Shown: positions 28,493-32,345 of the stretch, in pieces
How positions within the stretch are numbered: the stretch's first letter is position 1
Layout of the letters: each line of letters opens with the position of its first letter
Source of the DNA: Pontiella desulfatans
GTDB lineage: Bacteria > Verrucomicrobiota > Kiritimatiellia > Kiritimatiellales > Pontiellaceae
DNA: 64,000 bases
Direction: 5' to 3'
NCBI RefSeq assembly: GCF_900890425.1
Contig: NZ_CAAHFG010000004.1
Location: forward strand, 552,798 to 616,797
The notes under the pieces: model-generated
The model's database searches: none
What the model was told of the DNA's origin: nothing
The model's input: the letters and a program-made list of their open reading frames with translations, nothing else
Program-made: the position numbers and the translations under genes

Positions 28493-29110
28493 ATGGACCC
28501 GTTCATCAAGATCTGCGGAATCTGCTCGGAGGGCGACCTCGGGCAGATTTCTGCATTAAGGCCCAACGCGCTCGGTTTCATCCAATGGCCGAAATCCAAG
28601 CGCTATATCGCCCCCGAAACCGTTGGCCAATGGGAAACGCCCGAAGGCATCCGGCGCGTCGGCGTATTCGTGGCCCCCTCCGAGGCCGAACTCGCCCACG
28701 CCGCGCAGCACGCCCGGCTCGATGTCCTCCAGATCCACCGCATTTCCAGCGGATGGAAACTCGACCGCGAACTCTTCAAGGGACTCGAGGTCTGGTGCGC
28801 CCTCAAGCCCGACGAACTCTACTTTTCCGAAGCCGGATTCCCGTTCGACCGCTATCTGCTAGACTCCTACGACCCCAAAACCATCGGCGGAACCGGCGAA
28901 ACGTGCGACTGGGAAAAAGCCCAAACCCTCGTCCGCTCGCTTGAGATCCCGATCCTGCTCGCCGGCGGCCTCACCCCCCAAAACGTCGCAACGGCCATTC
29001 GCCAGGTTAAGCCGTGGGGCGTCGATGTCAGCTCCGGCGTCGAAATCGAACCCGGCGTAAAGGACATCGCCAAGGTCGAAGCCTTCATCGACGCCGCCCG
29101 GGAAGCCTGA
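28493..29110 (+). CDS. trpF: Phosphoribosylanthranilate isomerase TrpF
   Basis: 205 residues. It isomerises N-(5-phosphoribosyl)anthranilate in tryptophan synthesis. The family opening IKICGI carries the catalytic Cys (near residue 8). LLAGGLTPQNVATAI and GVDVSSGVEIEPGVKD form the C-terminal phosphate-binding half of the barrel with the catalytic Asp. LLDSY replaces the usual LLD-x-K/H segment. The stop overlaps the gluQ start by one base (TGATG). trpB lies 2 kb downstream, beyond gluQ and the paaX-like insertion, so an original trpF-gluQ-trpB order seems likely. Confidence 0.93.
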   Translation: MDPFIKICGICSEGDLGQISALRPNALGFIQWPKSKRYIAPETVGQWETPEGIRRVGVFVAPSEAELAHAAQHARLDVLQIHRISSGWKLDRELFKGLEVWCALKPDELYFSEAGFPFDRYLLDSYDPKTIGGTGETCDWEKAQTLVRSLEIPILLAGGLTPQNVATAIRQVKPWGVDVSSGVEIEPGVKDIAKVEAFIDAAREA

Positions 29111-30024
29111 TGCTCACGCGTTTCGCGCCCAGCCTAACCGGCTACCTCCACCTCGGCCACGTCCTGCACATGCTCTACGTCTGGGGCATCGCCAAGCTCA
29201 ACAGCGCAAAAGTCCTCTGCCGCATCGAAGACCACGACCTCGCCCGCGCCCGCCCCGAATACGAAGCCGCCATCCTCGAAAACCTCCAATGGCTCGGCTT
29301 TGTGCCCGACCTCGGCCTCCGTGCCGGAACGGAGGCCGCCCCGGACTCGGATTTCCGCCAAAGCGACTGCTCCGCCCACTACGAAACCGTCCTCCAAACC
29401 TTGCAGGATCGCAATCTCGTATACGGGTGCGACTGTAGCCGCAAGCAAATCCTCGAACGGGCCGGAGGGGCGGCATCGGCCTCTTCAGACGCCTCCCCCG
29501 AACTCCACTATCCCGGAACCTGCGCCGGCAAAAACCTTCCGCTCCAAGGAAACACCGTCCGCTTCAGGACCCACGATGGCGAAACCATCTTCCACGACCT
29601 CAAGCTCGGCGAACAACGCCAAACCCCGCGCAACCAATGCGGCGACTTTTCCCTCCGCGACCGCCAAGGTCAGTGGACATACCAATTCGCCTGCGTCTGC
29701 GACGACATCCGCCAAGGCGTTGGTCTCGTCATCCGCGGCGAAGACATCCTCTTCAGCACCGCCCGCCAGATCCAGCTGTTCAACACGCTCGAAGCTTCGG
29801 TTCCCCAATATTGCCACCATCCGCTCCTCCACGATGCCGCAGGAAAAAAACTAAGCAAACGCCAACGCTCAGATAGCATCAGCCGGATGCGCGAAGCCGG
29901 CGCCACCCCCGGGCAAATCATCGGCCAAGCCCTCTTCCAGGCCGGCCTGGCCCCGGATTCCTCCCCGCTTTCCCCGGCCTCCGCCATCGAAAAGTATATC
30001 ATCCAGCACCCACGATCGTGGTAG
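29110..30024 (+). CDS. gluQ: Glutamyl-Q tRNA(Asp) synthetase
   Basis: 304 residues, the length of GluQ rather than GltX, as the anticodon-binding domain is missing. It activates glutamate and attaches it to queuosine at the wobble position of tRNA(Asp). Motifs: RFAPSLTGYLHLGH (HIGH box), RIEDHDLARARPEY, Cys ligands CDCSRK and HYPGTCAG of the zinc site, and KKLSKRQRSD (KMSKS box). The start at 29110 overlaps the trpF stop. The last 11 residues (EKYIIQHPRSW) and the TAG stop come from a 44-bp palindromic repeat; the paaX-like gene has the same ending. Confidence 0.92.
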   Translation: MLTRFAPSLTGYLHLGHVLHMLYVWGIAKLNSAKVLCRIEDHDLARARPEYEAAILENLQWLGFVPDLGLRAGTEAAPDSDFRQSDCSAHYETVLQTLQDRNLVYGCDCSRKQILERAGGAASASSDASPELHYPGTCAGKNLPLQGNTVRFRTHDGETIFHDLKLGEQRQTPRNQCGDFSLRDRQGQWTYQFACVCDDIRQGVGLVIRGEDILFSTARQIQLFNTLEASVPQYCHHPLLHDAAGKKLSKRQRSDSISRMREAGATPGQIIGQALFQAGLAPDSSPLSPASAIEKYIIQHPRSW

Positions 30025-30037
30025 TTGGATGATATAC
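29994..30037. repeat. 44-bp palindromic element, copy R1
   Basis: Layout: 12-bp arms GTATATCATCCA and TGGATGATATAC, a central palindrome CCACGATCGTGG, and two 4-nt asymmetric linkers. It overlaps the 3' end of gluQ and supplies its stop. R1 and the reverse complement of R2 are identical for the first 26 nt of the element, and the identity reaches 5 nt further outside it (GAAAA). Confidence 0.93.
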
Positions 30038-30136
30038 CTTTTCCTTGGACACCATGCCTTCTGAAGAAAACCGACCGTTTCCCGCACCGCCCAGCGGCTC
30101 CCCGGGGCGGCCTCCATCCGGCAATCCCCTTGAGAG

Positions 30137-30180
30137 GTATATCATCCGATGGCTACGATCGTGGGTGCTGGATGATATAC
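30137..30180. repeat. 44-bp palindromic element, copy R2
   Basis: Same architecture: arms GTATATCATCC and GGATGATATAC, core ACGATCGT. It is inverted relative to R1 and lies 99 bp from it. It contains the stop codon of the paaX-like gene on the minus strand. Confidence 0.93.
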
Positions 30181-31007
30181 TTTTCCAGTTGCCGGCCGAT
30201 GGCGGACCGCACGGTTTTGTGCAGTTCATAAACCGCTTTTCCCCGATAGCCCTTGGGCAGGAGTTCGGAGGGAAGCAGGGGATCCGGGCGCATGCATTGG
30301 AGATAGGCCTCCGATTCCTGGCGAAGAAGGTGCAGCAACGCGGCTTCATCGTGGTCGGTTTCCTCGAGCACCCGGAGGTTTCCGGAAAACACCGACAGAT
30401 AACGTTCGTGCAGCTCCTTGAGCCAGTCGAAATTCCAGCTGTTTTCCACCATTTCGATGGCCTCGTGATGCAGGACGGTGCGGGATTCGAGCAGGTAGGA
30501 GACGGCATTCACATTGGCGGCGCGTTCAAGGTCGTCGTACTCGGGGCGAATGTCGCGCGGGGAAATCCAGACGCTTTTTTGCAGGCAACCCATCCGCATC
30601 CGTTTCAGGAATTTGCGGAGGGTGTCGCGGTAGTGCCGCTCCTTTTCCGGAACATCGAACACCAGGGTGTACCAGATTCCGTTCCATTTGGTGTTCCAGA
30701 GCTTTTCCGGGAAGTGGTATTCCGGAAGAGCGGCCTGGCCCAGGGCGGTGAGCTTTAGATGGGGGAGTTTCCCGTCGTTTTCGTGCCGTACCAGCAAGCC
30801 GGCACCGCGAAGCCGGGACATGGAGTTGTGGTAGGCCCGCAGGTTCGGGTAGGTGCTTTTCCAAAAGTGCACCCTGCCGCCGGTCGTCAGGATTTCTGCG
30901 AGATCCTCGACCAAATCCAGCCATTCCTCCTGCGCCCGACGCCGTACAACGGGTAGCGACCAGTCCGGGTGATGGAAACTTATCCAGTCCATAGGTATAT
31001 CATCCAT
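30153..31007 (-). CDS. PaaX-like protein: winged helix plus Cas2-like domain, bounded by palindromes
   Basis: 284 residues from the ATG at 31007; Met6 at 30992 is an alternative start. Residues about 20-95 form a winged-helix-like N-terminus (NLRAYHNSMSRLRGAGLL). Residues about 110-175 resemble the Cas2-like ferredoxin-fold middle domain of PaaX (WYTLVFDVPEKERHYRDTLR, then MGCLQKSVWISPRD), with Asp118 at the position of the Cas2 Asp. A helical C-terminal domain follows. PaaX itself represses phenylacetate catabolism; no paa genes are here. The start lies inside palindrome R3 and the stop inside R2, so the gene and its repeats form one unit of about 900 bp dropped between gluQ and trpB. It may bind its own repeats (autoregulation) or take part in their movement; both are inference. 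Confidence 0.78.
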   Translation of the reverse strand: MDDIPMDWISFHHPDWSLPVVRRRAQEEWLDLVEDLAEILTTGGRVHFWKSTYPNLRAYHNSMSRLRGAGLLVRHENDGKLPHLKLTALGQAALPEYHFPEKLWNTKWNGIWYTLVFDVPEKERHYRDTLRKFLKRMRMGCLQKSVWISPRDIRPEYDDLERAANVNAVSYLLESRTVLHHEAIEMVENSWNFDWLKELHERYLSVFSGNLRVLEETDHDEAALLHLLRQESEAYLQCMRPDPLLPSELLPKGYRGKAVYELHKTVRSAIGRQLEKYIIQHPRS

Positions 31008-31038
31008 TAACCACGATCGTGGTACTTAGATGATATAC
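30995..31038. repeat. 44-bp palindromic element, copy R3
   Basis: Arms GTATATCATC and GATGATATAC, with the core CCACGATCGTGG identical to R1. It covers the 5' end of the paaX-like gene: the possible ATG at 31007 lies inside it. Its position is that of an operator over promoter and start. Confidence 0.93.
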
Positions 31039-31145: not shown

Positions 31146-32345
31146 ATGAAACCGACCCAACCTGATAGTCACGGCCATTTTGGCGCCTATGGCGGAATGT
31201 TTGTTCCGGAAACGCTGATGGAGCCGTTGAATGAATTGACGCGCGTCTACAAGATGGTGCGCAAGGATCCGGAGTTCAAAAAGGAGCTTCAGTATTATTT
31301 GCGCGAGTATGTTGGCCGTCCGACGCCGCTCTATTTCGCGGAGCGCATGACGGAGCAGCTGGGCACCGCCAAGATCTACCTGAAACGCGAAGACCTCTGC
31401 CATACGGGCGCGCATAAGATCAACAACTCGATGGGGCAGATCCTGCTGGCGAAGCGGATGGGCAAGAAGCGCATCATTGCGGAAACGGGGGCGGGGCAGC
31501 ATGGCGTTGCCACGGCAACCGTCTGTGCCATGTTCGGCCTCGAGTGCGTGGTCTACATGGGCAAGGTCGATATGGAACGGCAGGCGCTGAATGTTTTCCG
31601 CATGGAGAGCCTGGGCGCCACGGTGGTGCCGGTAACCGTTGGCCAGCAGACGCTGAAGGAAGCAGTGAACGAGGCGATGCGCGACTGGGTGACCAACATC
31701 CGCTCCACCCACTACATTCTCGGTTCCGCCCTCGGCTCGCATCCCTATCCCATGATGGTGCGCGATTTCCAGAGCGTGATCGGCGTCGAGGCCCGCAAGC
31801 AGATTTTGAAGGCGGAAGGCCGTTTGCCCAACGCCATCATCGCCTGTGTCGGTGGCGGCAGCAATGCGATCGGCCTGTTCCACCCGTTCATCGAGGACGA
31901 GGATGTCCGCATGATTGGCGTGGAAGCCGGCGGCTTCGGGATTGATGGCGGCATGCACGCCGCGCGTTTTGCCCAGGACAAGATCGGTATTTTGCAGGGC
32001 ACCAAAACCTATGTACTGCAGGATGGCGACGGCCAGATTGCGCTGACCCATTCCATCAGCGCCGGCTTGGACTATGCCGCCGTCGGCCCCGAGCACAGCT
32101 TGCTGCGCGACCTCGGCCGCGCCGAATATTCCTTTGTCACCGACGAAGAGGCGGTGGATGGCTTCGACAAGCTTTCGCAGTGGGAGGGGATTCTCCCGGC
32201 ACTCGAAAGCTCGCATGCAGTTGCCTGGATCATCAAGAATGCCGGGCAGTTCGCCAAGGACGAGCTCCTGATCGTCAACGTCTCCGGTCGCGGCGACAAG
32301 GATGTGATGCAGCTTGCCGAGTGGAAGGCCAAGCAGAACAGCTAA
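31146..32345 (+). CDS. trpB: Tryptophan synthase beta chain
   Basis: 399 residues, the TrpB1 type. It condenses indole with serine using PLP. Visible: [15 protein letters not shown] at the N-terminus, the PLP lysine in [13 protein letters not shown] (K91), [12 protein letters not shown] (catalytic Glu loop), the phosphate loop VGGGSNAIG, and the C-terminal [14 protein letters not shown] lies 9 nt before the ATG. No trpA follows in the window; the next locus is the pilus operon. It is now separated from trpF by gluQ and the paaX-like unit. Confidence 0.96.

Follow-up and report, generated by a model that had tools for sequence, protein, structure and literature searches.

The window analyzed here, a 64,000-nucleotide stretch of the Pontiella desulfatans genome, contains a paaX-like gene lying between gluQ and trpB together with three 44-bp palindromes, at 29994-30037, 30137-30180, and 30995-31038, which have exact 10-bp GTATATCATC/GATGATATAC arms and a CGATCG center. 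The features of the locus are as follows.

29110..30024, + strand: gluQ (tRNA-synt_1c family), a conserved neighbor
29994..30037, no strand: extra palindrome at the gluQ end, coding for the GluQ C terminus (...EKYIIQHPRSW) and the stop codon
30038..30136, no strand: spacer between two palindromes, 99 bp, occurring once in the genome
30137..30180, no strand: stop-side palindrome, coding for the PaaX C terminus (...EKYIIQHPRS) and the stop codon
30153..30992, - strand: paaX-like gene, 279 amino acids from the inner ATG, the open reading frame being open to 31007; the protein has an N-terminal helical/winged-helix part, a Cas2-like domain with D113-x-P-E, and PaaX_C
30995..31038, no strand: start-side palindrome, 44 bp with imperfect arms, recurrent in relatives
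31146..32345, + strand: trpB, a conserved neighbor on the start side of paaX

The three palindromes and their CGATCG centers were thus found as a previous sequence-only reading of this DNA had described them. Matches to the arms numbered six in the window, against 1.1 +/- 1.0 expected, and none of 100 shuffles gave six. As single strands, the palindromes were predicted to fold into strong hairpins. A known structured RNA was ruled out, as no Rfam family was found at its gathering score, and so were terminators, since a consensus terminator scan did not list the palindromes of the gluQ-paaX-trpB locus. The previous reading had also placed palindromes over both ends of the gene. This holds for the stop codon, which lies within 30137-30180, but the more likely start, judged from the genes of relatives, is the second ATG (30990-30992), which would leave it, like theirs, 2 bp outside the palindrome 30995-31038.

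The palindromes starting at 29994 and 30137 are mutually 90% reverse-complementary across 51 bp and 99 bp separates them, in agreement with the inverted element proposed to lie beyond the stop-side palindrome. In relatives, gluQ and paaX converge onto one common palindrome, and in close relatives gluQ ends with ...EKYII-stop within the stop-side palindrome, which also codes for the PaaX C terminus. The extra palindrome of P. desulfatans is the counterpart of this single gluQ/paaX palindrome. The element at the gluQ end, which the sequence-only reading had singled out, is explained by a doubling of the common palindrome in the P. desulfatans genome, around a spacer that is unique. That the spacer is a captured piece of another locus was ruled out, as a second copy is absent from the genome.

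The open reading frame at 30153-31007 (minus strand) matched PF20803 (PaaX_M, "central Cas2-like") at 2e-24 with 85.8 bits and PF08223 (PaaX_C) at 2e-6 with 28.6 bits. Both were above their gathering scores and were the only two domains given by Pfam, bearing out the earlier description of a Cas2-like product. On the other hand, the protein scored 55 bits with the PaaX equivalog TIGR02277, far below the cutoff of 265. An AF2 model (pLDDT 86) had E. coli PaaX (8a39) as its nearest PDB entry, with a Z score of 15.6 over 239 residues, and its residues 104-183 matched many Cas2 chains with Z scores of about 7-8. In this model, D113 directly follows strand 107-112, the first strand of the Cas2-like domain. 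Residues D113, R122, G135, Q138, S140, W186, D237, and P238 were invariant in 38 aligned relatives. D113 was present in 38/38 proteins of the bracketed type versus 1/15 canonical PaaX proteins, as was Q138 (38/38 versus 1/15), with S140 behaving alike; the residue at the D113 position is E in E. coli PaaX and T in Rv0674. A previous study of the X. albilineans Cas2 (XaCas2) showed the corresponding aspartate to be required for dsDNA cleavage, glutamate being no substitute (PMC5438308). By its model, the PaaX-like protein appears to have what marks a Cas2 nuclease, an aspartate ending beta-1 of a ferredoxin fold. The neighbors of the gene are trpF, gluQ, and trpB, not phenylacetate catabolic genes as in the case of E. 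coli paaX, so that the stated lack of such genes nearby stands. A reading of the neighboring open reading frames noted no Cas1 or CRISPR beside it. The TIGR02277 cutoff, the neighbors, the active-site residues, and the unbracketed state of all 15 canonical controls ruled out a canonical PaaX regulator.

An exact-arm search of the 8.66-Mb genome found the GTATATCATC family at 20 places, 3 at the locus and 17 away from it, while a reversed control pattern gave 0 matches in the same genome. The repeats are therefore not restricted to one locus; solitary copies are common, as had been anticipated, and autoregulation alone does not account for the 17 dispersed ones. Most of the distant copies are perfect 44-bp palindromes, lacking the asymmetric linkers by which the sequence-only reading had characterized the element. 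A search with PF20803 found nine full-length genes and one short Cas2-type hit in the genome. By inspection, all nine full-length genes have a palindrome at each end, with a CGATCG or CGGCCG center and arms of their own; the question raised earlier, whether paaX-like genes are always bracketed, thus has a positive answer within this genome. The GCGTCTAATT family was found at 7 places and the GGTGACATCC family at 10, each with 2 at the gene. The exact-arm copies per family are accordingly modest in number (7-20), under typical REP numbers.

As an unbiased sample for palindromes, contig C4 (1.17 Mb) was scanned in full. It has 53 long palindromes, of which 31 have a CGATCG or CGGCCG center (p 7e-22), the two together making up 7% of palindromic hexamer centers. 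When a cognate match was defined as at least 12 of 16 outer arm bases in common with one of the nine genes, 22 of the 29 center-matching palindromes away from paaX had one, against a null of 0.7%. By extrapolation from this contig, the whole genome may hold roughly 200 such palindromes.

Several palindromes stood apart. Two of the 31 center-matching ones on C4 (856340 and 886468) are inside genes and look like chance, and three (C4:657439, 943475, and 1038417) are built in the same way, although no gene of the genome is clearly cognate to them; the one at C4:657439 is similar to palindrome families seen in congeners (ATCCAGATTGACGATCG) and may be a relic. Among the nine paaX-like genes, one (L008/L279, G000:C1:4199478-4199723) has an in-frame TAG together with near-perfect palindromes and a solitary cognate copy at C4:481763. 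An unrelated second pair of long palindromes with other centers (GGCGGTCCTGTGAAATAATG.../GGTCGGTCCTATG...) was seen at G000:C4:1080527-1080582 and 1097181-1097242. The perfect palindrome CAAGCACACTTGCGCAAGTGTGCTTG recurs in the P. desulfatans genome (L010:2791-2816 and G000:C4:1102285-1102312), its C4 copy lying within a large predicted gene, and a shorter form, TCACACTTGCGCAAGTGTGA, occurs in another genome (L134:3965-3984).

Of the 31 center-matching palindromes on C4, 28 are intergenic by gene calls from a simple hexamer gene model that takes 79% of the contig as coding. With a limit of 20 bp, a gene 3′ end adjoined 15 of the 26 away from paaX (9% expected, p 1e-9), and a gene 5′ end only 2; 7 of the 26 lay between convergent genes (14% expected). 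This intergenic placement at 3′ ends is unlike that of operators and like that of REP elements. Perfect palindromes made up about 16/30 of the solitary copies versus 0/7 of the gene-flanking ones among the copies found by pattern (p 0.011), and the solitary copies look as if one half of a mixed gene-flanking element had been duplicated to form each of them. The common edge of the palindromes is AAR|arm...arm|YTT. In three families, the solitary copies of G000 (L009-L022, L239-L255) mostly have AA/AG to the left and TT/CT to the right of the arms, and some lie inside longer symmetric flanks, as though inserted into existing palindromes. The flanks have this AA/TT edge in common without a clear target-site duplication, in a comparison of species whose divergence would hide exact target sites or duplications. 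A GGTGACATCC-family palindrome is in frame inside a GH2 glycosidase gene at G000:C4:1145429-1145472 (L255, L256). GH2 homologues align gap-free across this copy, as if coding sequence had been replaced rather than interrupted, a pattern that simple insertion does not predict.

Nine species preserve the order trpF-gluQ-paaX-trpB, with PaaX identities of 59-78%, and the paaX-like gene, for this reason, does not look actively mobile but inherited in place. The palindromes, not the gene, look dispersed. Mobility of the gene is the one part of the sequence-only reading that found no support, its own tests having otherwise come out in its favor. The absence of the unit from some relatives, a further point it had raised, was observed in two congeners (G004 and G018), where gluQ directly precedes trpB without a paaX-like gene or a palindrome. 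Among 28 genomes of the genus, GTATATCATC palindromes were found in 4 only (G000, G001, G013, and G024) and GGTAACATC palindromes only in G021 and G023; these are the species whose gluQ-trpB paaX bears those arms. In G027, diverged arms are present at its paaX gene only. When the genes flanking four C4 sites, as well as trpB, were sought in six congeners, the yggS-proC, thiF-lysE, bioB, and rng junctions, which have a palindrome in P. desulfatans, had none in the orthologous junctions examined.

A scan of GTDB gave 45 loci from Pontiella and other Kiritimatiellota, Lentisphaerota, other Verrucomicrobiota, and Patescibacteria, and many distant members (23-33% identity) are still bracketed by palindromes, e.g., Wolfebacteria L155. 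With one threshold for all sets, strong palindromes were found on both flanks of 22/27 Kiritimatiellae genes, 5/12 genes of a phylum-wide sample, and 7/16 distant GTDB members, versus 0/15 canonical PaaX genes, 0/11 Cas2 genes, and 6/634 ordinary C4 genes. About half of the distant homologues have a palindrome on one side only, or none, at this threshold, and the association is thus weaker in the distant sets. The paaX genes without repeats, which the earlier reading had regarded as evidence against a mobile unit, do exist, but they are canonical regulators lacking the Cas2-type aspartate. The palindrome centers cluster on the protein tree, with 5 changes versus 12.9 in shuffles (0/500 as low). 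Spread by phages was ruled out, as a tblastn search of the phage collection had no match and IMG/VR gave one weak fragment without palindromes. This fragment, the putative viral contig L281 (IMGVR_UViG_3300031949_000100), encodes a partial PaaX/Cas2-like protein with an FDIPE motif, palindromes being absent nearby. The hits on plasmids were distant PaaX family members only.

To our knowledge, the HuH tyrosine transposases are the only enzyme class associated until now with REP-like palindromes that have a cognate protein of their own. The system of P. desulfatans resembles REP/RAYT (TnpA-REP, REPtrons; REPINs) in having two palindromes that bracket the gene, dispersed and mostly intergenic cognate palindromes, co-occurrence and coevolution of repeat and gene, and a gene kept vertically; repeat-gene co-occurrence, coevolution, a bracketed gene, and dispersed palindromes are the RAYT features used for this comparison (PMC2817692). 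It differs in its PaaX/Cas2-fold protein, where REP/RAYT has a HuH Y1 (IS200/IS605-type) transposase, and in its palindromes of 36-62 bp with a CGATCG/CGGCCG center and their lower copy number. A direct reading of the flanks and arms found no GTAG/GTRG head beside the palindromes. The paaX/palindrome system works like REP/RAYT, yet it is not a member, lacking both a HuH transposase and, on inspection, a GTAG head. None of the 19 Y1 transposase (Y1_Tnp) genes of the genome is flanked by paaX-type palindromes, by which RAYT-driven palindromes were ruled out.

CGTC-tagged REPs and Rickettsia palindromic elements, which have an unpaired CGTC end and no known dedicated gene or transposase (PMC3733652), are likewise dispersed short palindromes without a HuH transposase whose ends are occasionally within coding sequence, but the P. 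desulfatans system has a dedicated gene. The PaaX phenylacetate repressors (E. coli 8a39, Mtb Rv0674 3kfw) share the overall fold and the C-terminal motif DPLLP, whereas they are without the aspartate and the palindromic brackets, and paa genes are absent beside the P. desulfatans gene. CRISPR Cas2 and VapD nucleases share a ferredoxin-type domain with an aspartate ending strand 1; here, however, this domain is fused between the N-terminal helical/winged-helix part and PaaX_C, and the free-standing Cas2 genes of the same phylum are without bracketing palindromes. MITEs of classical insertion sequences are also short nonautonomous repeats matching the ends of a gene-bearing element, but no DDE/HuH transposase is present in the unit described here, and its dispersed element is the whole palindrome, not a terminal repeat.

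We think it rather probable that the gluQ-trpB locus serves as a "master" copy in a REP/RAYT-like system whose palindromes are spread by a PaaX/Cas2-fold protein. In the best reading of the sequences, the cognate protein would be a PaaX/Cas2 nuclease instead of a HuH transposase, and we infer that it is this protein that moves the palindromes. A PaaX-fold protein with an intact Cas2-type aspartate would recognize the palindromes bracketing its own gene, presumably binding them as a dimer, and its Cas2-like domain would cut them, either as dsDNA or as an extruded hairpin. Such cutting may drive copying via repair or fold-back, and the protein, or cleavage by it, would enable palindromes of matching sequence to reach new intergenic positions close to gene 3′ ends. 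The gene itself would stay put and be inherited vertically. Several independent gene/palindrome pairs are possible per genome, with nine seen in P. desulfatans. That many solitary copies are perfectly symmetrical points to a hairpin or fold-back step, although ordinary quasipalindrome correction could be an alternative source of this symmetry. Binding at the gene-flanking copies probably also autoregulates the paaX-like gene. An unrelated transposase acting in trans could conceivably be the mover of the palindromes instead.

If PaaX-like proteins were transcription factors, with the palindromes as operators at their own genes and at dispersed targets, the PaaX repressor fold would be explained, and palindromes that overlap the start side of the gene would fit autoregulation. 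Such a regulon is unlikely, however, given that the distant copies favor gene 3′ ends (15/26 no more than 20 bp away, 9% expected) over 5′ ends, which they avoid (2/26), that palindrome sites turn over between congeners, that the start-side copy is paired with a stop-side copy, and that the Cas2-type aspartate, invariant here, is absent from the canonical repressor. The same 3′-end positions, along with those between convergent genes (7/26, 14% expected) and the stable hairpins, would suit a protein that acts, by binding the palindromes, in nucleoid architecture, transcript termination, or mRNA stabilization, the palindromes spreading by another route. This appears improbable, as the locus palindromes were not among the terminator-like sites found and every family belongs to a single gene and turns over together with it from species to species, which would be needless for a general host function.

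Full palindromes on both sides could also supply homologous arms for homing, in which the protein would cut solitary palindromes and repair of the double-strand breaks, templated by the bracketed locus, would copy the whole gene in, and several paralogous units are indeed present per genome. But the aligned P. desulfatans paralogues are only 45-49% identical to the locus protein and hence not recent copies, nine species have the gluQ-paaX-trpB unit in an identical position, and solitary sites are far more numerous than units, all of which makes homing very improbable. A local autoregulatory operator with chance similarity elsewhere has nothing in its favor beyond the position of the palindromes over the gene ends, and we rule it out as hardly conceivable in view of the 17 further exact-arm copies and the lack of matches to the reversed control.

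Returning to the spread of palindromes by the PaaX/Cas2-fold protein, its wider form is evenly poised in our judgment: a Cas1-free Cas2-fold protein, joined within a PaaX scaffold to an N-terminal part that binds DNA, may be a new type of mobilizer. It would replicate short perfect palindromes via a hairpin intermediate, and throughout Verrucomicrobiota and Patescibacteria a genome could have several such families working in parallel and orthogonally. Searches of an open-access library, which takes in neither preprints nor subscription journals, turned up no earlier link between PaaX genes and dispersed palindromes, and the novelty of the association carries that reservation.

The P. desulfatans system looks like an unrecognized counterpart of REP/RAYT, built on an unrelated protein. 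If true, a second, unrelated protein class would be associated with dispersed palindromes, meaning that the palindrome-spreading lifestyle evolved more than once, and Cas2-fold proteins would gain a role beyond CRISPR and toxin-antitoxin systems. The up to nine natural protein/palindrome pairs in one genome would be usable for specificity tests. In that case, many proteins of Verrucomicrobiota and Patescibacteria now called "PaaX family transcriptional regulators" would also seem due for reannotation as likely enzymes of DNA processing.
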